Shown here: piece after piece, positions 4,518-24,233 of the stretch
How positions within the stretch are numbered: the stretch's first letter is position 1
Layout of the letters: each line of letters opens with the position of its first letter
DNA from: a virus
Strand: one strand, 5' to 3'
DNA: 33,652 nt
IMG/VR virus record: IMGVR_UViG_3300027608_000090
Coordinates: 1-33,652 of that record
Position numbers and translations under genes: made by a program
The notes under the pieces: model-generated
Database searches by the model: none
Told to the model about the DNA's origin: nothing
What the model saw: only the letters and a program-made list of their open reading frames with translations

Positions 4518-4525
4518 TATTTATA
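4518..4525 (-). promoter_or_regulatory. T4-type late promoter TATAAATA for the 582-residue fibre
   Basis: Exact TATAAATA on the minus strand, 18 bases before the fibre ATG, overlapping the TAA stop of the upstream gene. An AGGAAAC ribosome-binding site lies between box and ATG. T4-like phages use this box for sigma-gp55-dependent late transcription (family knowledge). Confidence 0.75.
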
Positions 4526-5126
4526 CAGCATTGATATTGCTCAATGTCTGAATTCTCACAGTGTAATCAATTTGAATTTGACGATTCAAGCTCTTTTGCA
4601 CAGGGTGGAAAATAACATGAGTTATCAGGCGCAAGTTATCCACTGCACCGTTCCAGACCTTGAGTCCCAGTTCGTCAAACACAAATTCACCATTAAAATT
4701 GGTTGAATTGTCAAAAGCCTGCTGTTGAGCTGGCTCACCGTAATCTAACAAACACTGCACCAAAATATCTGTATACACGTTGCCCGATGTGTGCAACACT
4801 GTCATTTTGTTATTGACTGGGTCAGTGTCAGCCGCTGAATTGTCGTTGACTACTTTTTGATAGGTTTGATTGTAAAGATCAGCATTTTGACCAGTGGTAT
4901 TTGGGGGCAAGTATGTGATCACCCCAGTTGGGTCTACTGAGCTACCGCCGTTGCCAAATGCCATTTGATAGATATAGCCAATGTTTCTATCGCTGAGCGT
5001 TTGGGCCATAGCAATAGATATGTTTTCATAGTGAATAGCGTTGTGATCGTTGTAGAAAATCTCGCCGCTTTTGGGATCATGTATTTTTACATGACCAGTA
5101 ATTTTTGCCAATCCTGCCGAAATCAT
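4521..5126 (-). CDS. Virion-associated protein of unknown function
   Basis: 201 residues with no signal peptide or membrane segment. The N-terminal segment ITGHVKIHDPKSGEIFYNDH, followed by NAIHYENIS, is a motif I recall at the start of hypothetical structural proteins in aquatic T4-like phages. The segment IGYIYQMAFGNGGSSVDPTG suggests a beta-rich fold, and the C-terminal half ends in two strand-rich stretches, LRLITHVIFHPV and IQIDYTVRIQTL. The ATG overlaps the TGA of the preceding 49-residue gene (ATGA), with GGAGG as ribosome-binding site. It lies between the giant adsorption-type protein and the fibre, so it may join fibre to baseplate. This position can hold gp8- or gp9-type proteins in T4, but I see no recognisable similarity to either. 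Function unknown. Confidence 0.6.
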   Translation of the reverse strand: MISAGLAKITGHVKIHDPKSGEIFYNDHNAIHYENISIAMAQTLSDRNIGYIYQMAFGNGGSSVDPTGVITYLPPNTTGQNADLYNQTYQKVVNDNSAADTDPVNNKMTVLHTSGNVYTDILVQCLLDYGEPAQQQAFDNSTNFNGEFVFDELGLKVWNGAVDNLRLITHVIFHPVQKSLNRQIQIDYTVRIQTLSNINAV

Positions 5127-5272
5127 GCACGACCCTCCACGTAGGTTTTTTGTGTTTTAGGATCAAAAATTCTCATGTGCGCTTGGACAGATATAGATCC
5201 GGTTTCGTTGGGCCGTCTGGGTTTTTCCTGCGATTTGGCCTCAACTGGTTGTTTTTGTTGTGTGTTTGACAT
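5123..5272 (-). CDS. Small 49-residue protein sharing a motif with the next gene
   Basis: The product starts MSNTQQKQPVEAKSQEKPRR, a basic, polar and probably disordered stretch. It ends with QAHMRIFDPKTQKTYVEGRA, which parallels the first residues of the next protein (GHVKIHDPKSGEIFYNDH): both share H-x-(K/R)-I-x-DPK. The stop overlaps the next ATG as ATGA, an arrangement that favours translational coupling, and the gene fills the only space between the 5012-residue gene and the 201-residue gene. This supports a real gene despite its length. The start could instead be the internal ATG that encodes the Met of QAHMRI, but the overlap with its neighbour is the same. The ribosome-binding site is weak. 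It may be a partial duplication of the downstream gene's 5' end. Function unknown. Confidence 0.55.
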   Translation of the reverse strand: MSNTQQKQPVEAKSQEKPRRPNETGSISVQAHMRIFDPKTQKTYVEGRA

Positions 5273-5279
5273 GATCACT

Positions 5280-5287
5280 TATTTAGC
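5280..5287 (-). promoter_or_regulatory. Weak late-promoter-like box GCTAAATA
   Basis: GCTAAATA on the minus strand, 7 bases before the ATG of the 49-residue gene and just after the stop of the giant gene. It differs from TATAAATA at two positions, so it is only a candidate for driving the 49- and 201-residue genes. Confidence 0.25.
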
Positions 5288-5292
5288 CTACT

Positions 5293-8200
5293 TTATTCAC
5301 CGCGCAAGAACCTTGCGGCCAGAGTGTCAGTATCTTGCAAGGCCACGCCATTGCTGGCAGTTGTTGCCCCTTGTTGATACCAAGTCACGCCCTGGCGAAC
5401 CAAAATAGTAACTTCGCTACCTTCTGCCGGGGCTCGCAACTCAGGATACACAGCGCCATCTACTACAAATTCAATAGTAACTGGGTCAAATAGGCTCAGG
5501 AACCAGCGGTATTGGCTGGTGGCTGTGGTATCGCTGTACTTGTACTGACGGCGCCCACCTACGTATACTTCAATAGACAAGTTTTCTGTTGAACTGTCTT
5601 CAAAATCAGCTACGTCAATTAATGGGGCAGAAAATACGCTAGTTGTTCCGTCTCCTAACGGGAAGGTCCCGCTTAATGTTCCATCTGAAGAGTTGGTCAC
5701 TACGTAATCTTGATATCTTTGATCTAGTAAATTACCTCGTCCGGTATCGTAGACATCTGCGCTAGTACTATGACTTGCAGATGCGGTTCCTGCAGTACCA
5801 CGCAAGAGACTACTAATTGTGTTAAGAGCTGTATTTCTGTAGCGATACATGATACGTTCGCCGTCAATGGTAATTACACCAAACACACCTAGTTCAAGAT
5901 TAGGCTCAGTTAACACAGAAGCATCGGTGACATAAATGGTGTCAGCAGTGGCACTGAGGTCTTGACTCAGTGTGGTTGAAGTTGCGGCAGTGATTCGATA
6001 TGTGGCTTGCACCCCACGCATGTCTTGGAATATTCTGAAAGCCATGGATTCTGGAACTATGCTGTCAGTAAACATAGTCACAGCAAGAATTTGTGCAGGA
6101 CCAATAGCACCTGAGGCTAAGATCAAGGTTGCACTTTCAAGAGTCGACCCATCATCTTCAACTGTAAAATCAGCTCCCTCAAACAATCTATATCCATCTA
6201 ATGTCACCCACAATCGTCCTGCATTGACACTAGTACGGTTCAATAAAAAGTCATTGCTGGAGACCGCAGTACCAACCGAATAATCATAAGATCCAGGGTC
6301 TCCTGACACAGAAGCAGCATCATAAACTGTGCTGTCGTAAGGTTCAGCAATGGTCAATCCACTCACTATAGGACCATTGAATACCAAGGTCACTGGATTT
6401 TGTTGTGCTGTATCGTTCCAGGTGATAACAGCAAACACATCATCTAGGTTGACTCCTGAAGAAATTTGTACGGTTTGTGTTACCACTCGATAATCTGCTT
6501 CGGTATCCACACTGATCAATATTCTAGCACCACTAGGTGGTGGGCTAGTAAACACCACTTGACGACCAGGTGTGTTTGATCCTGAATAATTGGTTACAGC
6601 GTAACTACCTATTGTAGCGCCAACGCTTTGTACTTGTAGCACATTGTCCACCCAAACCTGGATGTCATTAGGAGCATCAATAATGCTTTGGCTGTAGTTA
6701 CCACGTTGTGGCAACCCAAAACTCACCTCAACATTATTACCAGTCCATTCGATGCCTTCGGGTGGTTGTAGTCGCAAGCCATTGCGTGTGATCACCATGT
6801 TAGCAGAGTTGCTGCCTTGTATGCTGTTGGTCAATGTGATTACGGGTGTGGCTACCATAGCTGCATCAGCCACTTTGTACTGTACCTGTGGAGTGCTCCA
6901 ACTGAGGTCGATTGTGGCGGTGCCTGTCCCTGTACCAATACCTGTGGCAGTAAAGGTCACTCCCACTGTGTTTGACGCAGCACCTATCGAAACAAAATCA
7001 GTGGTACCAAGTGTGGCAATAGTGTATTGATTGCCCTTGACGAAATAACCAGCTTCAACTGTGGTCAGGCCAAATGCCACTAGAGCAATTCCTGAGCCAA
7101 AGCCATAACTGGTACCAAGATCAACTTCACTCTCAAGTGTGGGCACAAAGCTGATCCAGTAGTCCAGGTCAGTAATAACAATTCCAGCCGGTACATTCTG
7201 CTGTGCGCGGTAATAGGTACCACTGTTGTTTACAATATCCAATCTTGAATAACTATCCAAAATATCCCAGGTGGTGCTCTCAATGTAAGGTGTCCAACTG
7301 ATGCCGCCCACTGATGCACCATTCACAAACACATAAACATCGCTAATTTCTGCGGTGTTCACTGGAATGATTACTGTAGATCCAATGTCTCCGCCAAGGT
7401 AATTGGCACGATACAATTGACTGCCACCACCCAACTCGTATACTGAGATATTCACAATGTTGCCGGATGCTACGGTCAACAAGGTGATTGTGTAGTCGTC
7501 CCAGTCGATGGTGAAATCAGTGCCTGGCACAAGATCTATTCCTGTGGTAATATTACTGACCAATACCTGCACTGGATGTTCGACAACACCTGCCCAACTC
7601 AAAGTTGAAGTTACCGCAGGTTCGTATTCGTATCTTATGGTTCCCAATTGGAAACCATGTCCGTCACGGCTCCAATCAGCTCCTGGTCGGGTGTACACAC
7701 GCATGTCCAGGGTGTCAAATTCTGCGCCATTGACCAGCTCTTCAGGAGCATGGCCTTCGTACAAGCCAATAAACTCGCCGCCGTCAACATTGATGTCTGT
7801 GGGTAATGTGCCCAGTGTAGCATCTGTAAATTCGCTGGTGTATTCTGCATCTACTGCCAAGGGATCGCCTAGGAAATAATCTCCGTACACTTGCACACCA
7901 GGGTAATCAACTCCATCAACTAACAACGGTAATTCAAGTCCAGGCGCATTCACTCCTGGCACATACAAGCCCATTGTTCGATCTACGCCAGTCAGTCCCA
8001 CGCCGTTGTTGAATGTGCCTGCATTTACTTCTGTCCAGTCTTCTAGATTAAAAGTTGGTCCAACCACAGCAGTAGAATCAGCACTGGCAGCTTGCCACAC
8101 GCGATTATCAAATCTTACCAGCTGGCCATCTTGATATGTTCCGTTGGAACTCCAGGTTTGAACATCACTGAAATACTGGAAGCGGTCATACTTGATCACA

Positions 8201-11200
8201 GTGCGGAAAGTTCTTACTAGATTATAACTATCTGCAACGCCAGTTTGTTCAGTGTTGAACGTTTGGCCCATACCTGAACCAATCAGATGCACATAGGCCC
8301 TAACACCTGTACCGTTACCCCCACTGAACTCAACAGTAGGAGTGCTGCGATATCCTTGTCCTGGATCGGTTACTGTGACTGCCACCACCTGGCCCAGGCT
8401 GTTGATCACTGCGGTACCCTGAGCAACTACTACAGCGTCTCCTACAAATGTCACCTGAGGTGGTTCATTATATCCTGATCCACTATCAATTATTTCCACA
8501 CTGTCAAGACTCAACAGATAATTTGTATACCACTGTGAGTAAGGCCATTCTTCCCATACTGTGCTTGACGCAGGTAGATCGCTTTGAATATTGATACTGG
8601 CGTTAAATGCTGTGCCATGTTCATAAGGTAATAAGATTGGGCTGGTGTATTTTGCTATCTGCAGGTCAGTATTGAAGTAAGCCGGCACATCAAAGTCTGT
8701 GTTGTCTCCAAAGGATTGATCACTACCGGTATACTTCAGGTTAAATTCTCTAATGCTCACATGATATGGCTTGACTTCTTGAATGTAATCTGCCACAAAT
8801 TCTTGGTTGTCTTGACGATAGTTCTGGAACGGTAACAGTTCTCGGATTCTATGATCCACATCAATCAAGGAGGTTTTGACCAGCCACTCAGGCGCTGAAA
8901 ATTCACTCAACACATAGTTAAACATCAGCACCAAGGCCCGGTTGCGTTCAATAGCTAGATCGTCTATAAACAACTCTTCATTGATGGCTTGAATAACCTT
9001 GCGAGTTTCTATCACTGGCTCTTGATCGTAGTATTGTGCATCAAAAACTTCAAGGTCAAATCCAAATCTGCCCAGTGCATAGTCATACAATTCTGCTGAG
9101 AATGCTATAGTACCATCTTGTAGTACCACACGTTCGTATCCTGTGTCAGTGCGCAGATAAATTTCATACTTTCCTTGGGCATTGGCTGTGACCTTGACTG
9201 AGCTACCAACGTCAACAGTAAGCCCACTCAATGCTGCATAGTTCACAACCTCTGTGATTACTTTGGTACTAGGGTTGTATCCTGGGCGATTCCACACAAT
9301 GTAACTCCAGTAGTCTGGAGTATTGTATCCTTGAACACTGGTCAACACCAACACACGTTGTCCTGCTGTGACGTCACTGTCTTGCACAGTATAGATTGTC
9401 CATAAGCCTCGGTTGGCGCTGTCAGTCACCACTAGATATTTGTAGCCAACAGGTATGGGCCCATCAGGATTACTCCAAATTGGTTGTTGGAATCCCAATA
9501 TTTCTTGAGTTGCCACACGCAGATTCCAGTTGGTCACTGTGACTCCGTTTACCAAGGCGGTTTGACTCGGCTCAGGTTCGCTGGAATTTAATAGATTAAA
9601 AATTCTTGTTTCGGCAATAGGGTATTGAGCCAGTACTGTATTAGCCCTAGTAAGATAGTTCTTTAGTGCAGCCAAACGGTCCACAAACATGCTCTGTCGT
9701 GGACGGAACTGTACGCCATACTGTTCAGCTGGACTTAGATTGGGATCTGGTACTAGATTACCAAAGGTGTCAACTCCGCAGAAACTGTCTTGGAATTTAC
9801 GATACAGGCCAGAACTCAAGAAACCGTCTGCACGATCTTGTGGGATCAGTTCATATTCCACGTGAACATTGTCTGTGGTCAATTCACGATCAAACTCAAT
9901 GCTGATAATAGTATCGCTGGCTTCAATGTAATCAGCACTATTATATAATGCAATAGTGCTGGCATTGATAGGTGCCATGTAGGCAATGCCACTGGCACGT
10001 GGATCTTGGATATAGGAAGCCACTGTGCTGGCCGGTAATGTCTTGCCTAGTTGTGTAGCGGTAACAGTAATGCCTCGCACCCAGAAATAATATTCAGTGG
10101 CAAATGTTCCATCTATGGTGAGTCGACTGTTGACCGTGTAAGACACAGCGTTCAACGGCGTACCTTCGCCAGTGTAGCTACCTGGCGGTTGAGCACTGAC
10201 CACCCACTGATACACATCAATCTCACTACCTGGGAACAACTGCGCCCAGCGTCGACTTGCATACACTATTGAATCTTGGTTGGGATCAATGAATCTTACA
10301 GAACTGATGTTCCACCACAACTCGCCTACTTGTTGTGCGCCCCAGGTGGTTCCTGTGATATTTGCAGGACCAATATTGTAGGCAGCAGGATCTACTGCAC
10401 CAATGTAATCAAGATTTTGTCTGGCCGCCCCAAGTATTCTACCTTGCAACGGATTGATAAAGTCCAAAAATTCTGACTTGGCACTGGTGATTCGATCGTA
10501 CAAGAACACACTGTTCAACAAGCGAATATCTACCACTGGTTGTTGTTCTCTCAACACTGTCCATGAAGGTGTACGAGTGGAGTTTTCAAACACAAACACT
10601 GCACCGTAATCAGCGGTGCTGTCGCTGTAGTCGTTTTTAGGTGCACCGGCCATGAGCACCCCAGAAGTATAGTTTACTACTGTGCCAAACCCATCATATG
10701 GTGCAACATCTGAATTGTTGACCTGTTGCCCAAACACAAACTTGCCTGGGTTGGTTATCAACAGTGTTGAGCTAGGGAGATAGTCGTATGTGTATACTGC
10801 TCCACTTTGCACAATGATCGAAAAGAACACAGTACTACCAGCATCAAAGAAGGTGGTGCCATCGTCAAATTCTGTTTCAAGATACAAGGTACCTCGGGGC
10901 GCACCTACCACTAGATTGATCGCAGAGTCATCAATGCTGACACTACCACCAAATCCTGCTAGTTCTGTGGCATACGGACTTTCAATAGTTTGAGTCCAAG
11001 CAAATGTTTCAAAACCCAGGGTAGCAAATGTAGTACCTATACTGCCCGGAGCCACTTGCAGTTTGTTGTATTCTGGGGCGGCATCTGAATTCTTCACACT
11101 CAGGGTCAAGTATCCAGCGGTGTTGACTGTGGCCAACACGTTTGGTACTGTAGTATTAATTGCACTGGCTAGACTTGTTACAGTGGTGTCAGTTAATATC

Positions 11201-14200
11201 ACATCTATATTGTTGACTCTGATAGTGTTGCCAATGGTAAGCACTGGATTGCTCACAGTGGCAGTAATTGTTCCATACACTCGACTTTGGTTTACAAAAC
11301 GTTCGACCACGCCACCTTTGAAAACTTGTTGACTACTTTGTGGTTCCCCCACATACAGACTACAGTTGTTGCTGCAAATGTCTGTGGCTTGACCAAAGTT
11401 TGAGAACTCAGCAATGATGTTTTGTTCAACTTCTTGAACTTGACGGAACTGATTGGTCTCTATTTCAATTATGTCACCTGTGGCCAAGTTGGCATCTATG
11501 GTAACAATATTACCGTTCACAGTGAATGTGTTGAACAGCCCTGGACCGGCATCCACGCTGTTTTGTTGATTGATCAAAAACTGACCGTTCACCAATACAC
11601 TAACTGGTCCAGTTACTGTGCCAAGCACTGTGAAATTAACTGTGCTAGTATCTGAGTTGTAAATGAATTTCTGAACACTACGATCAAACACATAAGTTGA
11701 TCCAGTTTCAGTGATGGTTTCAACTGAGTTTACTGTTATGGTCAAATTATTTACACTGGTACCACCCAGCGATGTGCCTAGAATGGTCACAGTATCATTG
11801 ACTGCATAGTTTTGGCCGCCACGTACCACTGTGACCACATATGATGAGCCACTACGGCTCACATCAAATTTGGCACCAAACCCTGAACCTGAGGTGCTGT
11901 ACTGACTGAGATTACTGTAGGTTGTTGCGCCTGCTGCTACTCCTGTATTGCTCACTGTGTTGATGGCATTTGCCATGGCCTTGTATGGTGTGCCAATCAG
12001 TACCTGACGTCCGTCTGTGGTACAGCATACGCTGTGCCCAAATCTATTTCCGGCAGTAAGTCCGCCTGTGATATCACTGGAATCAATGGTATACACATAG
12101 GTAAAATATCCCTTGGCAGATACCACCAAGATATCTGCACTGATAAATGATATCAAAAATGTTACTGTGGTTCCAGCAAGGGTATAATCAATATTGGGTC
12201 GCAACAGATTGCCGTTGAGCTTGATACTGAACGAATAGATGTTGTCAGTTTCTACTGTGGCTAGACCTAGTCTACGACCATTGGCATCTAGACCATCTGC
12301 CAAGTTCTGTGTCACAGCGGTGTATGGAATTTGATAACTGTTGTATCTTGCAAACTCAATCAAGGTTTCTTCTAGCACAGTACCAGTACCTGTACCAGTA
12401 CCTGTGGCAGTAAAGGTCACTCCTACTGTATTACTAGCCGCACCAATTGCAACAAAGTTTGTTGTACCAACACTTAGAATAGTGTATTCTGTTCCTGGTA
12501 CAATGGCAGTGGCATTAAACAATCCTGGAGTGTTGATAAAGGCCACTGTGTTGAGGCCAGTAATGGTGTACTCCACTCCCACTGTCTGCACTTGTCTATT
12601 TAGACTGACCTTTAACTGATATATGTTGTCAATTTGGACTGAATTATTGATGTTCCAAGACTTGGTCACACCATCAGCAAATACTTTCAATTCCTGCTGT
12701 TGCCAGTCAACTTGACCATAGGCATGTACTTGGTTTGCACCCGGTGCACCCACATACATCCAACGCTCGTCCTGGCTGACTGCCACTGAGTATCCCATCT
12801 CTCCTGTTACAGCACGATCTGGGGCAGTGGGCGGGGTCAACAGTTGCCATGTGGTATAAGGAATACTGCCTGGTTCTCCCAGAAGAGGATCACGGAAAAT
12901 TACAAATGCATAGCCTACATTGGCTAGACTTCCAGTGCCTTGGCTAGCACTGGCTCCGGCCACAGCCCAGGTTTGATCGCCAAAATCAGCAGAATTGCCC
13001 AGGCCTCTTACACCAGTGGTTGTCACTGTCAATATTGAATCGTTAGTTCCAATGGGACTAACTGGTATGTACTGGTCTCCGTAGCTCTTGACATACACAT
13101 AAATTGCACCGTACTCTACACCAGAGCCAAATCCATATCGAGGACTTCCTACCAAGGCAGCCAGTCTATTACGGGCCTGTGCCACGCTGGCACCATACTG
13201 TTCGCCTGCATCCAACAACACAGGATTCAATGAAATGATATCAGAGAATACCGTGTTCTTTTGTAAAACTTCCCATAAGCCTGCGCCGTTGTTGTCTACC
13301 CACACTTTAGCACCTGGTAGAATATTGTTGGCATATGGCAAATTGATCACATCGCTGGCCTGGGCCACACGCATAGTTTGCAAGGTGAATCCTAAACCAG
13401 ATCCATTGGCCACAACACGATCGCCAGTGAAGTCAAACGCAATGTTCACTGTGGTCAAATTTAGCACAGACAACACCTGATACACACCGTTGATTTCTGG
13501 GTCAAAGAATTTGATAATCAATTTGTTGCCGACCGCCAGGCCATGATTGGTTGAAAAGATCACTCGGCTGGTGCCATCAAGATTATCACAAACGTGTTGA
13601 ATTGTACCTGGTACCGCTTGAGCACGGTATATGTCCCAATCGTAACTGTTAACTTTGGCCACCCATACACTGGTGCCTACTTGAATAGCATCGATGTTGG
13701 CCGCAAGACTGGCAGAATTTTCAATGTCAAACACTGTGATATCAGCGTCATCTAAACTCACATAACCAGCAGTGGGCAATGCTAGATCTGTTGGTAATTC
13801 TGTGGTCACTGGTAAAATGTCAGTTGATGTTAATGCAAAACTTTGTCGCCACACACTGCTGAGGAAGATAGTTTGATCAGCTTCACTGACCTGTTGTGGC
13901 TGTATGACTTGAATCAAGCTAGGATTACTACTAAGCAAGGCACGATCAAGTCGTAGTTCAAAGTAACTGCGATTAGCGTTGGCACCATACACTGCTCGTT
14001 GTACTGCCCAATTTTCATATATGTTATAGTCGGCAGATTCTTTACCAAGGTTGGCCTGTCTGAATAACTCTGTGGCCAGTAATGTACCCTTGGTATCCAA
14101 GAATTGTCTGTACACGTTTACTTGACTAACGTCATCAAGATTCAATGCCGCCATGTACTGACGAGGTTTGAATCCTATCAGGCCATATGCCAACAAATCA

Positions 14201-17200
14201 TTGTCTGATTCAATGTTTGCTGCGTTGATGTTGTAACTGTTGGCCAGTTGATCAGCTTTGTTGGCCAAGTTGGGCAACAGGCCCAACTCAATCTGCGTGT
14301 AGTCACTTTGAGTCCACACATTAAAATCAAACTTGTCCGTAGGCTGTACAATTGTCAGTGCTGACCAATATACATTTTTGTATTTTACAATTTCGCCCTT
14401 GCTGTAGGTTTTTAAACCAGTCCACTCTTGAACGTTATTTTGATTCAAGATAAATCCAGGTGCATCAACTGATCCGTTCCAGTCAGCAGTGGTCATGGCC
14501 ACCATGCTCAATCTGCTTTGTCGTGCGCCTGTTGTGGGATCATAGATTAGGTCTCCAAACACACTTTGATTGTTCAACACAATCATGTGTTCGTAGTTGG
14601 TGAATCTCATGTCAATATAACTGATGGCGTCCAGGTTCAACGGTTCGATACTGAAATTATTACCCAGTCTTACTATGTTGAGTGCTCGTGGTGGTATCTC
14701 TTGTGAATTTTGATTCAACAACAGGTTCTCTGTGGTTTCAGTATTGATACTGTCAACCACAGCTAGAGGTCTAGAAATTTCTAGTCTAGCAGCCAGTGGG
14801 TTTAGATTTATAATTGCATCTGTACTCCACCCCTGTTGGCTCCAATACAAGAATTCATTGATCATGCGTGGCCAATCCAACACATAACCATTGGCAATGT
14901 TGGTAAATGTTAGCCCTTGTGTGCCCAAAAGTTCACCGTAACTGGCCAAGAAATCACACACAGCAGTTTCGTTATTGAATACAAATCCGTATGGAACTTG
15001 TACCACAGTGTTGGTGTAGAAAGTAGGAATACGCACAGTAATGCCACCTGAACTATAGGTTTCAAGTCGCCCTACGGCCTGACTTTGCAATATGTTAAAG
15101 TAGGGCTGTTGATTACCAAATCCAAAAACAGCATAGCCGTTGGAGACTTTTTGTACTGCAACACTACTGTATCTCACTTGATCAAACGGTTGATTCTTGT
15201 ACAATAAAATGTCATAACTTTGATCTGGGATCATCAGGGCAGTATTGGTTGAATTAGGGCTGGATTTTTCTGTGAATAATTTGATGTATTGTTTGTCAGA
15301 GAATGCTGCCATTCGATAGCACAATCGAACATCCAGGTTCTGTAGGTCTGCAGTCAATAGGTCAGTTGAATCAATGCCAGTCTGGCGATTGTAATCCACA
15401 ATCCAATTGATATAACTGGCTTTGCTTGTACCGTTGCCGTAAACTTCAACACCGTTGGCATCCAACCGATAACGATCATCCAGTAGATATTGATCATAAT
15501 CCAGATTGTATCGATATCTGTCACGGTCAGCAAACAGTGCAAAAAACTTTGCAGGACGTGTGACTGCCAGCACATGCATTACGGAGAATGGATATGACGA
15601 ACTGTTGTACCAAGATGCTTCAACTGGGCCGCCGTCTCCTAGCGCCCAACTCTTGGAAAATTTACTGTTAAGCGCGGAATTCAAAGGAGTAACACCTACC
15701 ACACAGTCAAGAGGACTTAATAACGTGCCTTCGCTGTCGGTAGGGATTACAGAGGTCAATCCTGGTCGTGCATACTTTGGCACTGTGTATGGTGCAACGG
15801 GGTCTGCCACTAGGCCAGCTTCTAAGTCGTCCCATAATACCAAGTTGTCAGAAGTATAAGGAGCTGGGCCGTACGTATCTTGCCACCAGTCGGGTTCTTT
15901 GGTCAGGCCCAACATTTGCCATGGAGTCAAACTGGGTTGTTCTGTATCATAGAAATATCGATAAATTCCACGCCAGGCACCCAACAGCGGTTGGTTATCA
16001 AGACGATTGTTACTGCTACTGTAGTTGTAGGTAAATTCGTTGTTGGCCAAATAATTTTGAGTATTATAGTCCAGTTTGTTCCATCCACAATAGGCCAAGA
16101 AGTCACTGCTGAAGATGGTGTTGATTTCTTCAAATGTGTATCCTGTGTTACGGAACTGTCCTGGCAACACATCGTCAATAGTGAGTGGTACTGGGTTGTC
16201 ATCTAGTTTGAGGTTGTTGTAGATGCGTGTTTCAAATTCCAGTAACACATCGTCACGAATGTCGCCAAACACAGGAGTGGTACTGCCGTCATGGCCCAGT
16301 ATAAATTGTGCGTTACCGTTGCTGGTGACCTGAGTTATCAACGCTGGTTTCCATGAAGGATACAATCCTAATTTGGTGGGTGTGTTGGGTACAAAATTGC
16401 CATAGGTGGCGTTGTATTCATTGACCAGTAGTACGTCTCCCACTGCCAGCGAGACCAACACAGTGATACGTGGACCGTCGGTAGCCACTGTATAGTCTAC
16501 ATCTCGAGTCAACTGTTGATCATTGAGATATACCAAAAGACCAAGATAATTTTGAGTATTAAAATCATACACCTGTACAGTATCAAATACATTGGTTGTG
16601 ATAAAACTCACAGTGTAGGCGGTGCTGGCATAAGTGATGCCAGCAGGGATCATGTCACTCCAATAAAATGGTTGGGTATCTAATTTGCCCAATGTTACAT
16701 TTTGTATAGCAGTATCAAGTATTTGTGCAGTGGTTTCAAATCCAATATTTTGTGTCAGTACTGAATCCAACATTTGTGCTTTGAATTTAATATATTCGCG
16801 ACTGTTGTATTGCATTGACGCAAAAATATTATAATCAGTACTGCGCATGAAGTAGCCGGCCAGAGTCAGTGGACTACTTTGTTGTAAGATAACCAGACCG
16901 TAAGGAATTATGTTGCCAAGATCTCGTGTGTTGTTGGCGCCGTTTACTGGGCCTTGAAGAGTCTGCAGATTTTCACAGATACTTTGATAATGAGTTCGAA
17001 TAGTTCCCAGTGTAAACTCTTGTGAATTTGAGTTCAATGGGTTACTTTGCAAGTTGTCAGGCACCTGATAAAATGCAACTTTACTGGTTTGATCGCTCAG
17101 CGCCAGCACTTCTACAATATCTGTCAGAGCATAGGTATTGAGTAAAGTTATAACAGTGCTGTTAGCGGTGGTGGTATAGGTATATTTGCCGGGATCAATA

Positions 17201-20200
17201 AAAACGCTTCCCACATATATTTTGATTACTGGTGTAGCAATAGATGTTTGAGACAATACAGCCACATCTAGTTTGAGTGTGGCACCTGTGTATGAAAATT
17301 TAAACTGCTGATACAGTTGTTGATCCACTGCGGCCTTTTGCCAGCCTATTAACTTTTGATAATCAGTGCGGTTGGCGTATTCTCTCACAGATCCAGAACT
17401 AATGTCTGATGTGATACTAACGTTGTCAACCACATACAAGAATGTGTCAACATACAAGTTGTTGTCAAACACAATGTCACCAACGTTGTTGATGTTCAAG
17501 TACTTGAGAGGAAACTGTAGTACCGGGTCAAGAATAGTTGTGTCACTCACAGCATAGCTGAACAGTTTTGATCCTGCAAATGTAGTTGATTGATACTGGG
17601 TACCATCTCCAAAACTCACGCCATCAGGATTGTAGATATTGAACAACGGAGCTTGCTGAATTGAAGTTTTTTGTTGGGCTTCGGTCCATTCAATTCCGTC
17701 GTACCAAAACGTTTTTCCAGCGGTAGTGTTGCCGCTGATGCAAACTGTAGCTTGATCTAGTAAAACCAATCCATCGCTGGCCTGGGTAAGAGTAATAATA
17801 GGTTGTGGTATCAAGGGAGCCACAGTGTCTGGTGTAACAAAGCTCACAATATAGATTCTATTGCGTACAGAAGTATCTTCGTCTGCCGCAAAAATAACTC
17901 GTGTGCCTTCTACAAATGTGTAACCATCAGTGGTATAACTGGTAGTTCCTTCAATATTGGAAAAGGCATCTGTTTCTTCAAAGTCAATGATATCCACTGG
18001 TGCTTTGCCCGATGTGCCCATGTTCCACAGGCGCATGCCAGGCCGAAACTGTACAATAGGTCTCTTGGCCCGGTAGTTGTTGTCCAGCACCGCAGTGGTG
18101 TTGTTGTAGTCAGCTGTGGCATTGAGCACGTCAATGTGGAACCAACGATTACTTCTAGTCCAGGCATTCAAATCTTTGCTGGAACGATCAATGGTCAAGT
18201 AATCTGGTTGACCTGGTTCTGTAGATATTGTACTGTCATCTGCATCTTCCACATACAGTTCAGGTACAACATAATTCACAGCAGGTAACAGTTCAATTGC
18301 AGTGCCCACTCCACTCACGTAGTATTCTCTACTGCTGATTGCTGTGGCCGCGGCCACCCCCGTACCATTTGCCAATACCACAGCAGGACCACCGTCAGCT
18401 GCACTCACTGTGAATTTGAGACCGTTGGCCGCAATTGACCTTACATAATAGGTCTGGCCCGCATTGAGTCCTCCCAGGGATGGTGAGGAAAATACCACTT
18501 GTTGTCCCACATATAAATCAGTGGAATCGTTATAGGTGATGTAGTTTGTACCAGCTTCAGTTGCGGTGTATTCAAATGCAGATGAACCAGATCCATAACT
18601 GGCAGGCGATACATCACCGGTGAATCGCACTCTCAGGCCGTTACTAAATTCCACACCGTTGGGACTGGTATAGGTGTTGCGTCCTAGAATTTCATCCACA
18701 TAGATAATGTTGGTTTGTGTCTGCTCTATCAGCTTGATGCGTCCAAAGATTTCTGGATCTGTGCCATCTTGATAGTACAAGGTATCTTGTACTGCGGACA
18801 ACAGCGGAATACGCTGGAACTCGCCGGTGGCGTCCTTGTACCATTGAGTGTTGCTGTAGGTTTGGCCATAACCAATGATAAATTTTTCTAACGGTGCAAT
18901 ATCAGCTATCTTGTTTACTTGTATGTACACAATACCTGCAATATTTACATAGCTGATTTGATACTTTTGATAGCGTTGGTTGGGTGCAATATCAATAGTA
19001 TAATCATAAGGCACACTGTCATAGCTGCCGGCCACGCCCACATTAGATGCATCATCTATAAGTGGGTCAAAGAAACTGGTACGATACCAGCCGCCCGCTT
19101 CGGTATCTTCGATGGGGTTGGTAAAAACCAAAGTACGACCATCAAGATTTGTAATCCCGTCAATGCCATTGTATTGACTAATGAAATCGCTGACTGGTTG
19201 ATTGTTGATCTGTGCAAACTGCATGTCTGTTACCAAATCGACTTGGCCAATACTGGTCAAGTTGTAGTAAAAACTCTGTGCATCCTTGGCTGGTACATTG
19301 AAAACTATTGTACCTAAATCTTCGCCGTTGTTGGTCACACCCAGTACGTCTCTACTGGATATGTTGGGAGTGGCAGTGATTGTACCCGACACTCCGGGAG
19401 TTGTTTGAATCCAGAATCCTGGTCCTGTTCCTGGGGTGCCATCCACAATATTCAATGTGCCTTGCATACCAGCTTGATTTTGTGCGGCATAGTACAGGGT
19501 GTCGGGTGCATCCTGAGGCACTGTGAATGTTACCAAGCCAGTGACTGCACCATTGCGGCTAACTCCTTGAGTGTATGTTTCACCAGTACCCGTAGTGGGT
19601 TGAGTCTTGATCCAAAACGGGAACACTCCATCCAGCGTCAAGTTAAACACATAGGTGTTGCCGCGAGCTAATGTCAGGCTGGGATTGTTTTGAAAATCAA
19701 TTACATAGGCCGATGTGCCTGAATTTCTCACTCGATAGTTAACAGTTTCTGTGCTGTTCTGAGCCACTTGAAAAGTGTAGTTGCCGCCACGTACCAGTTC
19801 AATGATAGGGTTGTCGCCGTTGACCCCGGAAAAAGTATAAACTCCATTGGCCCTGGTGACCACAAAATTGTCTGACGTGGACACACCAGTTGCAGCCACA
19901 TCCACAGTGTCAGGGCCGCCGGGTACCCAAAAATATTGTGAAAAATTAACAAACGCATCAAAATCTACAAATGGATCCCACGTGTAATATTCGCTTGAGT
20001 ACAATCGATCTGGGCGACTAGCATTGCCACCTTGAAATCCAATGGCGTCGTTCAGTCCCGGATAAGTGATTGCATCTCGGATCTGACTGGTCTCAGGTAT
20101 GAGACTGACCACACCTGGTTCCAATTGATAATTGGCTCTGGTTGCTGTGGGTTCAACCACATACTTGTCGTTAGGGTCAACTCCTGGACCTACCGAGCGA

Positions 20201-20331
20201 CCAACGAATCCTTGTGTTTTTCTAAAGTTAGGTTCTTGAATCAGTTGATCAAGTGTGGCGGCCAAGAATTGTTTGTTAGCATCAGTCTGAAAAATTTCAG
20301 GAAGAAAATCTACACTACGAACTGTTGCCAT
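5293..20331 (-). CDS. Giant 5012-residue modular baseplate/adsorption protein at the gp7 position
   Basis: An uninterrupted reading frame of 15,039 bases, roughly 45% of the window. The ATG shares its A with the TAA of gp6 and has GGAG 9 bases upstream. The N terminus (VDFLPEIFQTDANKQFLAAT) recalls N-terminal segments of very large structural proteins in aquatic T4-like phages. In order come a cupredoxin-like domain (residues about 207-297), many short beta-sandwich modules, a W-rich segment with KEPDWWQDTYGPAPYTSDNL (about 1463-1511), a CBM5/12-like segment (about 1965-2011), seven FG-GAP-like motifs (about 2377-3259), GSGY modules (about 3945-4016), two more CBM-like segments (about 4057-4103 and 4353-4398) and a conserved ITIDGERIMYRYRNT/LLRGTAGT motif (about 4814-4855). 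T4 gp7 has about 1030 residues, so most of this protein is extra. I infer a wedge or rim component that carries host-binding modules. Alternatives are a stand-alone long tail fibre or a multi-function replacement for gp7-gp12. Confidence 0.8.
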   Translation of the reverse strand: MATVRSVDFLPEIFQTDANKQFLAATLDQLIQEPNFRKTQGFVGRSVGPGVDPNDKYVVEPTATRANYQLEPGVVSLIPETSQIRDAITYPGLNDAIGFQGGNASRPDRLYSSEYYTWDPFVDFDAFVNFSQYFWVPGGPDTVDVAATGVSTSDNFVVTRANGVYTFSGVNGDNPIIELVRGGNYTFQVAQNSTETVNYRVRNSGTSAYVIDFQNNPSLTLARGNTYVFNLTLDGVFPFWIKTQPTTGTGETYTQGVSRNGAVTGLVTFTVPQDAPDTLYYAAQNQAGMQGTLNIVDGTPGTGPGFWIQTTPGVSGTITATPNISSRDVLGVTNNGEDLGTIVFNVPAKDAQSFYYNLTSIGQVDLVTDMQFAQINNQPVSDFISQYNGIDGITNLDGRTLVFTNPIEDTEAGGWYRTSFFDPLIDDASNVGVAGSYDSVPYDYTIDIAPNQRYQKYQISYVNIAGIVYIQVNKIADIAPLEKFIIGYGQTYSNTQWYKDATGEFQRIPLLSAVQDTLYYQDGTDPEIFGRIKLIEQTQTNIIYVDEILGRNTYTSPNGVEFSNGLRVRFTGDVSPASYGSGSSAFEYTATEAGTNYITYNDSTDLYVGQQVVFSSPSLGGLNAGQTYYVRSIAANGLKFTVSAADGGPAVVLANGTGVAAATAISSREYYVSGVGTAIELLPAVNYVVPELYVEDADDSTISTEPGQPDYLTIDRSSKDLNAWTRSNRWFHIDVLNATADYNNTTAVLDNNYRAKRPIVQFRPGMRLWNMGTSGKAPVDIIDFEETDAFSNIEGTTSYTTDGYTFVEGTRVIFAADEDTSVRNRIYIVSFVTPDTVAPLIPQPIITLTQASDGLVLLDQATVCISGNTTAGKTFWYDGIEWTEAQQKTSIQQAPLFNIYNPDGVSFGDGTQYQSTTFAGSKLFSYAVSDTTILDPVLQFPLKYLNINNVGDIVFDNNLYVDTFLYVVDNVSITSDISSGSVREYANRTDYQKLIGWQKAAVDQQLYQQFKFSYTGATLKLDVAVLSQTSIATPVIKIYVGSVFIDPGKYTYTTTANSTVITLLNTYALTDIVEVLALSDQTSKVAFYQVPDNLQSNPLNSNSQEFTLGTIRTHYQSICENLQTLQGPVNGANNTRDLGNIIPYGLVILQQSSPLTLAGYFMRSTDYNIFASMQYNSREYIKFKAQMLDSVLTQNIGFETTAQILDTAIQNVTLGKLDTQPFYWSDMIPAGITYASTAYTVSFITTNVFDTVQVYDFNTQNYLGLLVYLNDQQLTRDVDYTVATDGPRITVLVSLAVGDVLLVNEYNATYGNFVPNTPTKLGLYPSWKPALITQVTSNGNAQFILGHDGSTTPVFGDIRDDVLLEFETRIYNNLKLDDNPVPLTIDDVLPGQFRNTGYTFEEINTIFSSDFLAYCGWNKLDYNTQNYLANNEFTYNYSSSNNRLDNQPLLGAWRGIYRYFYDTEQPSLTPWQMLGLTKEPDWWQDTYGPAPYTSDNLVLWDDLEAGLVADPVAPYTVPKYARPGLTSVIPTDSEGTLLSPLDCVVGVTPLNSALNSKFSKSWALGDGGPVEASWYNSSSYPFSVMHVLAVTRPAKFFALFADRDRYRYNLDYDQYLLDDRYRLDANGVEVYGNGTSKASYINWIVDYNRQTGIDSTDLLTADLQNLDVRLCYRMAAFSDKQYIKLFTEKSSPNSTNTALMIPDQSYDILLYKNQPFDQVRYSSVAVQKVSNGYAVFGFGNQQPYFNILQSQAVGRLETYSSGGITVRIPTFYTNTVVQVPYGFVFNNETAVCDFLASYGELLGTQGLTFTNIANGYVLDWPRMINEFLYWSQQGWSTDAIINLNPLAARLEISRPLAVVDSINTETTENLLLNQNSQEIPPRALNIVRLGNNFSIEPLNLDAISYIDMRFTNYEHMIVLNNQSVFGDLIYDPTTGARQSRLSMVAMTTADWNGSVDAPGFILNQNNVQEWTGLKTYSKGEIVKYKNVYWSALTIVQPTDKFDFNVWTQSDYTQIELGLLPNLANKADQLANSYNINAANIESDNDLLAYGLIGFKPRQYMAALNLDDVSQVNVYRQFLDTKGTLLATELFRQANLGKESADYNIYENWAVQRAVYGANANRSYFELRLDRALLSSNPSLIQVIQPQQVSEADQTIFLSSVWRQSFALTSTDILPVTTELPTDLALPTAGYVSLDDADITVFDIENSASLAANIDAIQVGTSVWVAKVNSYDWDIYRAQAVPGTIQHVCDNLDGTSRVIFSTNHGLAVGNKLIIKFFDPEINGVYQVLSVLNLTTVNIAFDFTGDRVVANGSGLGFTLQTMRVAQASDVINLPYANNILPGAKVWVDNNGAGLWEVLQKNTVFSDIISLNPVLLDAGEQYGASVAQARNRLAALVGSPRYGFGSGVEYGAIYVYVKSYGDQYIPVSPIGTNDSILTVTTTGVRGLGNSADFGDQTWAVAGASASQGTGSLANVGYAFVIFRDPLLGEPGSIPYTTWQLLTPPTAPDRAVTGEMGYSVAVSQDERWMYVGAPGANQVHAYGQVDWQQQELKVFADGVTKSWNINNSVQIDNIYQLKVSLNRQVQTVGVEYTITGLNTVAFINTPGLFNATAIVPGTEYTILSVGTTNFVAIGAASNTVGVTFTATGTGTGTGTVLEETLIEFARYNSYQIPYTAVTQNLADGLDANGRRLGLATVETDNIYSFSIKLNGNLLRPNIDYTLAGTTVTFLISFISADILVVSAKGYFTYVYTIDSSDITGGLTAGNRFGHSVCCTTDGRQVLIGTPYKAMANAINTVSNTGVAAGATTYSNLSQYSTSGSGFGAKFDVSRSGSSYVVTVVRGGQNYAVNDTVTILGTSLGGTSVNNLTITVNSVETITETGSTYVFDRSVQKFIYNSDTSTVNFTVLGTVTGPVSVLVNGQFLINQQNSVDAGPGLFNTFTVNGNIVTIDANLATGDIIEIETNQFRQVQEVEQNIIAEFSNFGQATDICSNNCSLYVGEPQSSQQVFKGGVVERFVNQSRVYGTITATVSNPVLTIGNTIRVNNIDVILTDTTVTSLASAINTTVPNVLATVNTAGYLTLSVKNSDAAPEYNKLQVAPGSIGTTFATLGFETFAWTQTIESPYATELAGFGGSVSIDDSAINLVVGAPRGTLYLETEFDDGTTFFDAGSTVFFSIIVQSGAVYTYDYLPSSTLLITNPGKFVFGQQVNNSDVAPYDGFGTVVNYTSGVLMAGAPKNDYSDSTADYGAVFVFENSTRTPSWTVLREQQPVVDIRLLNSVFLYDRITSAKSEFLDFINPLQGRILGAARQNLDYIGAVDPAAYNIGPANITGTTWGAQQVGELWWNISSVRFIDPNQDSIVYASRRWAQLFPGSEIDVYQWVVSAQPPGSYTGEGTPLNAVSYTVNSRLTIDGTFATEYYFWVRGITVTATQLGKTLPASTVASYIQDPRASGIAYMAPINASTIALYNSADYIEASDTIISIEFDRELTTDNVHVEYELIPQDRADGFLSSGLYRKFQDSFCGVDTFGNLVPDPNLSPAEQYGVQFRPRQSMFVDRLAALKNYLTRANTVLAQYPIAETRIFNLLNSSEPEPSQTALVNGVTVTNWNLRVATQEILGFQQPIWSNPDGPIPVGYKYLVVTDSANRGLWTIYTVQDSDVTAGQRVLVLTSVQGYNTPDYWSYIVWNRPGYNPSTKVITEVVNYAALSGLTVDVGSSVKVTANAQGKYEIYLRTDTGYERVVLQDGTIAFSAELYDYALGRFGFDLEVFDAQYYDQEPVIETRKVIQAINEELFIDDLAIERNRALVLMFNYVLSEFSAPEWLVKTSLIDVDHRIRELLPFQNYRQDNQEFVADYIQEVKPYHVSIREFNLKYTGSDQSFGDNTDFDVPAYFNTDLQIAKYTSPILLPYEHGTAFNASINIQSDLPASSTVWEEWPYSQWYTNYLLSLDSVEIIDSGSGYNEPPQVTFVGDAVVVAQGTAVINSLGQVVAVTVTDPGQGYRSTPTVEFSGGNGTGVRAYVHLIGSGMGQTFNTEQTGVADSYNLVRTFRTVIKYDRFQYFSDVQTWSSNGTYQDGQLVRFDNRVWQAASADSTAVVGPTFNLEDWTEVNAGTFNNGVGLTGVDRTMGLYVPGVNAPGLELPLLVDGVDYPGVQVYGDYFLGDPLAVDAEYTSEFTDATLGTLPTDINVDGGEFIGLYEGHAPEELVNGAEFDTLDMRVYTRPGADWSRDGHGFQLGTIRYEYEPAVTSTLSWAGVVEHPVQVLVSNITTGIDLVPGTDFTIDWDDYTITLLTVASGNIVNISVYELGGGSQLYRANYLGGDIGSTVIIPVNTAEISDVYVFVNGASVGGISWTPYIESTTWDILDSYSRLDIVNNSGTYYRAQQNVPAGIVITDLDYWISFVPTLESEVDLGTSYGFGSGIALVAFGLTTVEAGYFVKGNQYTIATLGTTDFVSIGAASNTVGVTFTATGIGTGTGTATIDLSWSTPQVQYKVADAAMVATPVITLTNSIQGSNSANMVITRNGLRLQPPEGIEWTGNNVEVSFGLPQRGNYSQSIIDAPNDIQVWVDNVLQVQSVGATIGSYAVTNYSGSNTPGRQVVFTSPPPSGARILISVDTEADYRVVTQTVQISSGVNLDDVFAVITWNDTAQQNPVTLVFNGPIVSGLTIAEPYDSTVYDAASVSGDPGSYDYSVGTAVSSNDFLLNRTSVNAGRLWVTLDGYRLFEGADFTVEDDGSTLESATLILASGAIGPAQILAVTMFTDSIVPESMAFRIFQDMRGVQATYRITAATSTTLSQDLSATADTIYVTDASVLTEPNLELGVFGVITIDGERIMYRYRNTALNTISSLLRGTAGTASASHSTSADVYDTGRGNLLDQRYQDYVVTNSSDGTLSGTFPLGDGTTSVFSAPLIDVADFEDSSTENLSIEVYVGGRRQYKYSDTTATSQYRWFLSLFDPVTIEFVVDGAVYPELRAPAEGSEVTILVRQGVTWYQQGATTASNGVALQDTDTLAARFLRGE
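5765..5890 (-). other. Conserved C-terminal phage motif in the giant protein
   Basis: Encodes GVITIDGERIMYRYRNT and, after a short gap, LLRGTAGTASASHS. The combination 'I-DGE-I-Y ... L-RGTAGT--ASH' is one I recall near the C termini of many large phage tail proteins. It anchors the end of the giant protein to a known phage architecture, although its role is unknown to me. Confidence 0.55.
6921..7041 (-). repeat. Duplicated YTI...GTGTGT module, copy 2
   Basis: Encodes YTIATLGTTDFVSIGAASN then TVGVTFTATGIGTGTGT. It matches copy 1 at 12381-12501 with about 84 of 108 bases identical by hand count, including a 25-base exact run, at an exact offset of 5460 bases. This peptide is recalled as widespread in marine phage structural proteins. 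Confidence 0.75.
7140..7276 (-). other. CBM5/12-like carbohydrate-binding segment 3, divergent
   Basis: WDILDSYSRLDIVNNSGTYY, then RAQ and a closing DYWISF. The glycine after the first tyrosine is missing and the second W is replaced by Y, so it is a weaker match than the other two. Confidence 0.35.
8023..8163 (-). other. CBM5/12-like carbohydrate-binding segment 2
   Basis: The same pattern as segment 1: WSSNGTYQDGQLVRFDNRVW, then QAA and a closing DWTEV. It lies just after the GSGY modules. All aromatic positions are kept, making it, with segment 1, one of the two clearest copies. Confidence 0.5.
10580..13203 (-). other. Seven FG-GAP-like motifs, probable seven-bladed beta-propeller
   Basis: Seven copies of a (F/Y)-G-x-S/A-V ... 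(V/A)-G-(A/S/E/T)-(P/S) ... G-A-x-(Y/F)-V-(Y/F) pattern, in transcription order at 13078-13203, 12889-13006, 12702-12809, 11974-12054, 11293-11408, 10776-10960 and 10580-10699. Clear examples are GYSVAVSQDERWMYVGAPG, GFGGSVSIDDSAINLVVGAP and DYGAVFVFEN. Large insertions separate motifs 3/4, 4/5 and 5/6. The calcium loop DxDxDG of integrin-type blades is not seen. Integrin-like propellers bind ligands; the role here is inferred as receptor or glycan binding. Confidence 0.6.
12381..12501 (-). repeat. Duplicated YTI...GTGTGT module, copy 1
   Basis: Encodes YTILSVGTTNFVAIGAASN then TVGVTFTATGTGTGTGT, inside the insertion between FG-GAP-like motifs 3 and 4. It is paired with the copy at 6921-7041. 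The GT-rich end is itself a short tandem (GTACCTGTACCAGTACCTGT on the plus-strand complement reading), a likely site of slippage. Confidence 0.75.
14299..14439 (-). other. CBM5/12-like carbohydrate-binding segment 1
   Basis: Pattern W-x(5)-Y-x(2)-G-x(2)-V-x-Y-x(3)-YW-x-A ... W, read as WTGLKTYSKGEIVKYKNVYW followed by SA and a final W about 20 residues later. This matches the short aromatic fold of chitin/cellulose-binding modules CBM5/12, known also in phage tail proteins. Sugar binding is inferred. Confidence 0.5.
19441..19713 (-). other. Cupredoxin-like domain without metal ligands (in the giant protein)
   Basis: Residues about 207-297 follow a cupredoxin pattern: LARGNTYVFNL strand, PFWIKT strand, then FTVPQDAPDTLYYAAQNQAG with M289 and a final strand GTLNIV. 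The positions that normally hold Cys and His are Ala283 and Gln286; only Met289 remains. It is therefore probably a structural beta-sandwich. A second, more worn copy may follow at residues about 305-362 (FWIQT ... IVFNVPAKDAQSFYY). Confidence 0.5.
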
Positions 20332-23300
20332 TAAATTACTCCACTACCAGGCGCAGTACGCAAGTTGGTACTGGTCAATGCTTCAATAACTTCAATGTTA
20401 TTGATAGTGGCACCATTAGCAAATATCTCGTTTGGTTCTGACCGTATCTCGTACAAGTCTCCAAAATACTTTTGTGAGTTCAACGGTACTAGTACCACTG
20501 AACTGATAATTGATCCTAGTTCACTATGTAGGTAGGCCGCAAGTTCACTGAAGTAGAATGTGTCTCCAAAGTTCCATTTGTCGATACTGAAGTAGGTATT
20601 CATCGCGGCAACCACAGAACTTTTAATTTCACTGGTGCTGGCAGTTGAGCCGCTGGCTCTGATAACCTTGATTGTTGCACGTAATTCTGCTGCGGCTTTT
20701 TGTCCAAACAGGGGTTTGAATACAACACTATTCAAAATAATATTATCGCTCAACATCTTGAAGTTTTGTAGGCCTTGGTAAGTGGTTGTCAATTCATCGA
20801 GGCTTGGTACATCAGGTTCAATCACAGTGCCTGTGGTATCTTGAATCCAATTTTGATAAGCAGTATAGTAGGTCAACGTGACCACATACAGATCAATGAT
20901 ATTAGTGGTGCCTGGATCAATACGAGTGGTCAATGGTGCATTGTGTCGGTATTGAAAGTACAAGTCTTGACGACCTGTCTTGGCCAACCACTCTGTACTG
21001 ACGTCAATCAAGGTTCGTAGTCCTGTGGCTCCCACGCTCAATTGATAAAATGCTTCATCTGTGTAGGCATAAAAAACTTGTCCTGGAGTCCATTCAGTCT
21101 TGACCAACTCAATATCATCTAGAGTGGCATAGTCACTAACGACTTCGCCTTGGGTTACCAACAGATAACGTTGTAGGTTGTCAAAGTCCAGAGTTTTTTG
21201 TAGGTATATGTACTTTTGTGTGGGGTCTATAGAAGGAGCAACAATTTCATTGAAGAAATCAGGGTTGTCAGGTACACCATCATTGTCGCTGTCACGATAG
21301 CTGACCAGCACTTGGAAATCGTCTACATAGCCGTCTGATTCAACAGGTTGCCCAGTAATGGTCATGACAATATCTCCAGACAAATGATCTGTAGAGTCAG
21401 GTCTAGTGTTTACTGCTAAAACATTGATATAGTCCTTGATCACTGTGCCAGTTCGTGAATCGTAAATTTGTGAGCCATCATAGAAGAAAAAGCGTGTGCT
21501 CAGCACTGACCCAAAGTAATAGGCCAAGCCACGGAAAGTTATTGTGTAGTTTTGATTTTGAACCACAAACTGAATCAACCATGATGCATCTTGATTTGTA
21601 CCAGTATTAGATCCTGCGTTGGCTTGACTGAATGTGCTGTCAGTGGCTAAGTTGGTGCTGGTAATCAAGTACCAAGAATACGGCACATCGGTGATATCAC
21701 CGTTGCTGTCATAGCCAATACCAAAATTACGATTGAGCAAAATTTGTTCGGCCATTGACTGTTCCAGTGCCAATGGCAAGTCTGACACAAATAGTGGAAT
21801 AATAGTATCAACTAGAGCACCGGTTGGGATAAAATTATTCAGTGTGATTGGACCTGCGCCTGAACTGAGATTGCCAAGTCCGTTGTTGTATCCTGTGCCT
21901 TGTATGCTCAAAGGACTGGCCCAAATCTCTAGTGTTTCATCTGCACGACTAGGTGTGCCAGATTTGAGTCTATTGTTGGCGTCAAAGTAGTAGCCAACAG
22001 GTGGTACAAATTTTATCAAACTGCCCACTGCCACATATTTAAAATCAGTAGTGGTAGTGAATCCCACCGGGATTGGAGTTCCGTTGGGCCAAGTAGCAGA
22101 TGTCACTGCATTTCTAAAGTATCCTGTGGTCTCATTGGCCAGGGTGGTACTCTGGTTCCAGGTGGCGTCAGGAACCCAGGTTGTTGCACCATATGTGGGC
22201 AAGGTGGACTCAGTGACTCTAGGAAAATTAGCATAGTAAAACTGCTTCATGGTAGTCTCAGCCAAGCCAGGTTGAACCTGGTTGGCAATCACATCTGCTA
22301 TTTCATTTCGATTGGTGTAGGAAAACAGGATAGTGGGCAATATGTTTTGTTCCCACAATCCGCCATCAGCACCAAAGCTGTTGGTGCTGGAATATTTGCC
22401 GGTGTTGTCCACAAGGTCAAGATAACGACTGGTGCCGATACTTGCACGATTCAGTGCCTTGCTTTTTACAATTGAATTGTATTGTGTGTACGGGAAGAGA
22501 TTGTAGTCTTCGCCGTTGACCATACGGTTTTGAGTGTAGTATTGTGCAGGCGCACGTTGTTTGATTTGATCGATTGTTTCACGTGCCTGGCTATTGCTCA
22601 CAGGTCTTGTGATACCGCAAGTGAACGTAATGGTTTCAAGATTGCCGTTGCGACTGATGTAACTAATGGGAATAGTCACACTCTGCATTTCTTCAGGATT
22701 GATAATGTATTGCAAACCATTTGATGCACGAACATAGGCACGGAATGTGCCCACTGGTATTTCTGAGAACACTCCGTCGCCGAACACCATGGTGATCTGA
22801 TCATTGGTGCGTGATGTCACTGTATAGATGGATCGCAGGCTGGTACCAACTTGTTCAGCTGCCGCCGCATAGATGTTTTCTGTGTATTCCCACTCACGTG
22901 ATACAGTGCCAACATTGTCCAGTTGGTACAACCAACGGTCTTCGTTGTTGACACCTTCAATGTTGATGTTTACTGTGCGATTGCTGACTTTTTCAGCCAG
23001 GTTAAAATCTTGATTCTGAAGTACGCCTTGCTTGAACATAAAGAAGTAGCCAGTGTTGGCTGACTGAAACCCCAGTTGATCATTGCGGAATAACACATTG
23101 AATGGTGAATTGGCTCGTGGGCTTGGCTCATACAAATAATCTGCGCCCACTGATGTGGATGTCATGGCCTCAAACGGCATGGTTATTCCGTCTACTGTAG
23201 CAGTATAAGGTACAATAGGCAAAAATCCAGGTACCAAGTTGATTCCATATTCGTCTGTTCTCACGCCCAAGATAGTCTGGCGGTTGCCAGGGCGTCCCAC

Positions 23301-23855: not shown

Positions 23856-24233
23856 TTATACATAGGTGGCATTGCGTTGTTGTAGATCAAAGAAGATACT
23901 CAAGCGTTCAGCATCAGTACTGGGAACCACAGTTAGTTCTATCTGTATCAAAATACCGTTGTTCTGGGGAAATGTTTGGATGTCACTGATGTAGAGTCTG
24001 GGGTCGCCGCCGCCCACTCGCTGAACTTCTGCTTCAATGGCTGTTTGTAATTCTTCCAGTTGTGGCTCAAACAAATAGTCCCATAGCACAGTGCCGTATC
24101 CTGGGCGCCCGGGCAGTTGCCCTTGACGGATATTAAACGCATTCAACAGATCGCGTTTGACCAGTTCAAAATCCGTTAGTGTGAATTTTTTAAACTGGTT
24201 CTGTGTGTTAAATCCAATGAATCTTTGTGCCAT
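23856..24233 (-). CDS. 25: Baseplate wedge protein gp25
   Basis: 125 residues, close to the 132 of T4 gp25. The sequence fits the gp25/TssE family: an N-terminal helix region, RPGYGTVLWDYLFEPQLEEL with the G-x-G-T-x-L-x-x-x-L-F core, a helix TAIEAEVQRV, then GDPRLYISDIQTFPQNNGIL and a final strand pair ILIQIELTVVPS. The family's EPR motif, needed for wedge assembly, is DPR here (near residue 78). gp25 sits in the wedge core and helps start sheath assembly. It lies between the Ala/Gly-rich gene and gp6, the usual gp25-gp6 order. A TATAAATA box stands only 4 bases before the ATG and no Shine-Dalgarno sequence is near. Confidence 0.92.
   Translation of the reverse strand: MAQRFIGFNTQNQFKKFTLTDFELVKRDLLNAFNIRQGQLPGRPGYGTVLWDYLFEPQLEELQTAIEAEVQRVGGGDPRLYISDIQTFPQNNGILIQIELTVVPSTDAERLSIFFDLQQRNATYV

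Follow-up and report, generated by a model that had tools for sequence, protein, structure and literature searches.

The baseplate operon and its downstream genes

The window, which is the whole stretch of 33,652 bases that was analysed, carries a gp53-gp5-gp25-gp6 baseplate operon in which the gp7 position is occupied by a giant gene. The features of this locus, listed in the order of transcription, are the following:

31356-33650: 764-aa protein, truncated by the contig end (phrog_12050)
31057..31356, minus strand: gp53-like wedge subunit (phrog_7145)
26236..27759, minus strand: gp5-like hub protein with an OB domain (profile scan)
23856..24233, minus strand: gp25-like wedge/sheath initiator (profile scan)
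20331..23807, minus strand: gp6-like baseplate wedge protein, 1,158 aa (phrog_10646, E=9e-279; phrog_219, E=2e-23)
5293..20331, minus strand: giant virion protein of the PHROG 10938 family, 5,012 aa (ORF and profile matches)
5123..5272, minus strand: 49-aa ORF in the gap between the giant and the next gene, its position kept in relatives
4521..5126, minus strand: phrog_11259 protein, 201 aa (profile match)
2751-4499: fibre-like gene

A 1,094-aa protein is encoded between the gp53-like and gp5-like genes, and a 660-aa protein between the gp5-like and gp25-like genes. In phage CBB the gene at the gp53-like position carries the annotation PF11246 Phage_gp53. The gp5-like hub protein gave no lysozyme match in the profile scans, and the gp6-like protein is enlarged with respect to that of T4 (1,158 versus 660 aa), its similarity to the T4 protein lying mainly in the first ~450 residues. 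At the other end of the window, two adjoining and related-looking genes (2-625 and 567-1415, minus strand) appear glycosyltransferase-like by eye (e.g. LVLDADYVV); the gene at 2-625 has only a weak match, to phrog_1903.

The giant ORF starts with ATG and is read through 5,012 codons with zero internal stops; the stop codon TAA of gp6 and the start codon of the giant share one A (TAATG, junction ...TTTAATGGCAACAG). The intact 15-kb frame and the start inside the gp6 stop codon, both claimed in a preliminary description made from the DNA letters, are thus borne out. The same description placed fibre genes directly after the giant, which has to be corrected, because the fibre-like gene is preceded by a 49-codon ORF that had been overlooked and then by the phrog_11259 gene, whose start the small ORF overlaps. 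A simple scan finds this ORF conserved in place in 39 of 40 relatives, and PA5oct gp356 and Atu_ph07 gp179 have the same position. The last ~25 residues of its product (MSNTQQ...GSISVQAHMRIFDPKTQKTYVEGRA) resemble the N-terminus of the phrog_11259 protein (KITGHVKIHDPKSGEIFYNDHNA), and this resemblance suggests that the two proteins may share a docking motif.

The surroundings of the giant are strongly conserved: a gp6-like gene is found immediately upstream in 154 of the 154 metagenomic relative loci with upstream sequence, and a phrog_11259 gene downstream of all 40 complete giant ORFs with downstream sequence, certain loci in these counts sharing one contig. In profile searches for phrog_11259, ten of the ten relatives tested were positive and T4 was negative.

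Conserved core and variable inserts of the giant

An alignment of 38 homologous sequences was used to map blocks and inserts. Five blocks of near-constant length (residues 1-150, 700-1250, 1300-1950, 2050-2250 and 3250-3900), which sum up to ~2,200 residues, are present in nearly all homologues. All parts listed here, from the N-terminus onwards, are encoded on the minus strand:

19882..20331: N-terminal block, residues 1-150, 146-163 aa across all homologues (alignment)
18232..19881: variable insert, residues 151-700, 4-664 aa across homologues (alignment)
14482..18231: main conserved core, residues 701-1950, with a Trp-rich block at ~1450-1500 (alignment)
14269..14439: CBM5/12-like (chitin-binding type 3-like) copy 1, residues 1965-2021, paralogous to 4055-4109
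13582..14184: conserved core, residues 2050-2250 (alignment)
10582..13581: variable insert, residues 2251-3250, 85-1,130 aa across homologues (alignment)
12379..12561: module within this insert, residues 2591-2651, 62% identical to residues 4413-4471
8632..10581: conserved core, residues 3251-3900 (alignment, AF2 model)
8776..9015: helical part of this core, residues 3773-3852, with the conserved motif WLxKTS...DNQxFVxDYIxEVKPYHxxIR
8005..8169: CBM5/12-like copy 2, residues 4055-4109 (PF02839, E=3.8e-4, below the curated cut-off)
6919..7095: second copy of the 2591-2651 module, residues 4413-4471 (62% identity)
5293..8631: C-terminal variable region, residues 3901-5012, 245-1,622 aa across homologues (alignment)

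The inserts carry different kinds of modules. Residues 141-297 match the C-terminal domain of the fibre-connector family phrog_677 (E=1.8e-21), and within this span residues 198-297 resemble fibre-like proteins of cyanophages. The insert 2251-3250 contains at least four FG-GAP-like repeats and is propeller-like (motif search; PF14312 below cut-off). The protein is therefore modular, as had been proposed, on account of weak FG-GAP, CBM5/12-like, GxGY-repeat and fibre-connector matches; for its carbohydrate-binding-like and propeller-like parts, the support comes from the sub-threshold PF02839 and PF14312 matches. Matches to phrog_708, phrog_701 and similar 'baseplate/virion' families at residues ~3940-4000 were set aside, as they fall on a promiscuous GxGY repeat.

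Selection follows the same division. The giant was compared with the 5,058-aa relative L091 over 5,003 codons, giving dN 0.040 and dS 0.620, that is an overall dN/dS of ~0.065, indicating strong purifying selection. Constraint is strongest in residues 1-150 (dN/dS 0.016), the remaining core blocks have values of 0.03-0.05 (upper value 0.046), and the inserts 150-700 and 2250-3250 together with the C-terminus are under weaker constraint (0.08-0.10). Since the same region is also spanned by long open frames in relatives, and given these dN and dS values, the frame is far beyond what chance would produce; the pattern along the giant shows a real gene that is selected over its whole length, and its product is a tail-baseplate protein of ~5,000 residues.

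Distribution of the family and its presence in virions

The giant is a large, new member of PHROG 10938, a family of RaK2-like and other jumbo phages that is already catalogued without an assigned function ('virion structural protein', 3,324 positions). A whole-window profile search gives E=1.6e-129 for this family. Scanned as ten consecutive segments of ~500 aa, the protein matches it in seven (best E=1e-64), from residue 7 to ~3931; segment 2501-3000 and the last 1,012 aa gave no match to PHROG 10938. By tblastn against phage isolates, 28 records match the N-terminal 500 aa, some of them via the mobile insert domain only, and 59 match residues 501-1500. Homologues lie directly 3' of the gp6-position gene in PA5oct (3,857 aa), Phosso (4,555), Atu_ph07 (4,449), SCTP-2 (3,807), Vibrio 2.275.O (3,771), RaK2 (3,326), GAP32 (3,341) and CBB (3,340). 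ORF58 of AP-J-162 (4,455 aa) also belongs to the family through its match to Atu_ph07 (PMC11242549). A protein of this kind had been considered unusual for a baseplate component; it is not, because the family is catalogued and occurs in dozens of isolate records.

Among viral contigs, an N-terminal relative is encoded by 295 stretches and relatives of residues 3230-3930 number at least 578; complete frames measure 4,730-5,325 aa, and those left open at an end reach more than 6,000 aa. A divergent subgroup (L151-L161, ~36-39% identity over residues 1801-2300) has giants whose frames run without a stop to 5,500-6,050 aa, the length at which most of these loci break off; their C-terminal region is longer than 1,470 aa. 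Ribosomal protein S21 (PF01165) is encoded by every one of the seven uncultivated relatives in the 315-364 kb range and by one 220-kb relative (L129, L143, L149, L040, L272, L076, L151 and L120), and is absent from three shorter contigs and from GAP32. These genomes recall the freshwater phages that encode bS21 (PMC9723584).

Members of the family are virion components where this has been tested (CBB, phAPEC6 and PA5oct), all of these data coming from homologues distant from the window virus (21-27% identity over the 3230-3930 block). In CBB, mass spectrometry of virions detected CBB_236 with 21 peptides (7.72% coverage) and the adjoining gp6-like CBB_237 with 13 (PMC5259590). In phAPEC6, the 381.88-kDa gp245, which is assigned to the family by its size and its position after wedge gene gp244 only, was detected with 17 peptides (7.6% coverage) and gp244 with 21 (PMC7247149). 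Normalised by residue number or by kDa, the peptide yield of the giant is ~0.56 of that of the neighbouring gp6 in CBB and ~0.28 in phAPEC6, a crude index. In the PA5oct record both gp355 and gp357, the latter being the phrog_11259 protein, are flagged ESI-MS/MS.

A putative wedge scaffold and the alternatives

The preliminary description had assigned to one chain the place of gp7 to gp12. As the window contig ends at 33,652 bases, the corresponding families were searched in relatives, namely eight contigs of 315-364 kb, including GAP32, and PA5oct, with T4 as a positive control, in which they were detected. No gp7, gp8, gp9, gp11 or gp12 family was found in the eight relatives or PA5oct, where diverged versions could escape such a search. 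However, gp10-like N-terminal tags of ~35 residues occur in seven large relatives, mostly on long ORFs at other places, and PA5oct gp358 retains a C-terminal domain that is gp10-like, so that a one-chain replacement of gp7-gp12 is too strong a statement: replacement of gp10 is doubtful, that of gp7 and gp8 is possible.

Similarity to gp7 itself was sought by profile and by fold. The scan of the window protein gave no match to phrog_964 (T4 gp7), and hhalign of 17 giant segments against T4 gp7 and four gp7 parts (enlarged alignment) reached a best probability of 2.1%, versus 63% for the gp6 control. The AF2 model of residues 3230-3930 (81 sequences; pLDDT 77.8, pTM 0.50) is mixed alpha/beta with many strands, and no PDB structure matches it at E<=0.001; that of the N-terminal 1,200 residues of GAP32 is too poor (pLDDT 52.5) for the fold to be judged. 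Foldseek PDB matches of the AF2 models all had E>0.1 and were discarded, and searches of PDB sequences, for which profiles of the core and segments of the inserts served as queries, returned nothing usable. In BFVD, the significant matches of the 3230-3930 model include an Atu_ph07 structural protein and other phage proteins that resemble members of the same family.

We consider that the giant is probably a baseplate wedge scaffold in the gp7 position, the periphery of which forms a variable surface. No part of the protein is more constrained or more constant in length than the core, and the adjacency to gp6 is unbroken, in keeping with a structural partnership with gp6. In such an arrangement the core (1-150, 700-1950, 2050-2250, 3250-3900) would pack on gp6 and gp25 as T4 gp7 does, so that one chain would serve as wedge scaffold, probably in wedge order of copy number (~six per virion). 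The propeller-like FG-GAP, fibre-connector-like and CBM5/12-like inserts and the C-terminal arm would point outward, where fibres may attach to them and/or they may bind to the cell surface, and receptor contact could be relayed to the sheath via the giant. The phrog_11259 protein and the product of the 49-aa ORF would be its likeliest assembly or docking partners. The earlier proposal of wedge anchoring and adsorption in a single chain thus agrees with the slot after gp6 and with the presence of the family in virions, but it does not find a counterpart in gp7 homology; we infer the adsorption surface, and the sub-threshold domain matches suggest that receptors or glycans may be bound.

The lack of detectable gp7 similarity in the hhalign comparison would also suit a peripheral adhesin or fibre-network protein that has settled in the gp7 slot while a diverged, unrecognised gp7 is encoded elsewhere in the genome. 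Fibre-connector-like, GxGY-repeat, CBM5/12-like and FG-GAP-like modules, and the fact that about half of the giant is variable insert, speak in the same direction. The constrained core and its constant company with gp6 are less expected of such a protein, and the gp7 families phrog_964 and phrog_17744 were absent from the large relatives in the profile search; we regard this explanation as unlikely, though it deserves to be kept in mind. The clear alternation of conserved blocks with inserts could also indicate a polyprotein, cleaved at assembly into separate wedge and fibre subunits, and the mass spectrometry of homologues, being at the peptide level, demonstrates no intact chain. Nevertheless, block order and joins are conserved over the range from GAP32 to the window protein, and a cleaved protein would more easily have come apart into individual genes in one relative or another, which makes cleavage improbable.

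A very long gene within a tail operon might also encode a tape measure or another internal tail protein. Helical length is ~0.15 nm per residue. A tail of ~123 nm, as in CBB (PMC5259590), needs ~800 helical residues, versus 3,300-6,000 in this family; moreover the modelled core, mixed alpha/beta and rich in strands, contains no long helical rod, and the giant bears surface-type modules, so that this role is very improbable. A broader and tentative idea, which we hold to be possible but on balance rather unlikely, is that in a large group of jumbo phages at least gp7 and gp8, among the wedge proteins that are separate subunits in T4, gave way to a single chain of 3,300-6,000 residues. Its core would be non-homologous to gp7, and the chain would be an independently evolved wedge scaffold that brings its own variable surface modules.

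Dozens of isolate records of jumbo phages and several hundred viral contigs carry a member of this family, whose only label is 'virion structural protein'. If the giant is indeed a wedge scaffold, the baseplate parts list of these phages differs from that of T4, and the insert sites of the giant would be natural places to seek host-range variation; the question is directly testable in the isolates GAP32, PA5oct and 121Q.

Among known systems, the best BFVD fold matches of residues 3230-3930 are two 'YHYH domain-containing proteins' of uncultured phages (A0A6J5L0K2 and A0A6J5T0D1, 28% identity), which are database predictions only and carry no functional information; no solved structure or published function of the giant was found in the literature searched. 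The likeness to the T4 gp9/gp10 fibre-connector family (phrog_677) concerns one mobile module within the first insert, and short homologues are without that insert. PA5oct gp355, RaK2 gp465/ORF070w, GAP32_230, CBB_236, Atu_ph07 gp180, Phosso 294 and SCTP-2 140 belong to the same family as the window giant by sequence and lie in the same slot after gp6. The window protein differs from the isolate members in its length (5,012 versus 3,326-4,555 aa), in the 550-aa insert after residue 150, in the propeller-like insert of ~1,000 residues and in its C-terminal region, for whose last 1,012 aa tblastn finds nothing in phage isolates. With respect to T4 gp7 (phrog_964), the giant is about five times longer and no sequence or profile similarity was detected; its gene nevertheless lies, as that of gp7 does, directly after gp6 and before the peripheral genes, and by analogy the giant should be the third wedge partner of gp6.
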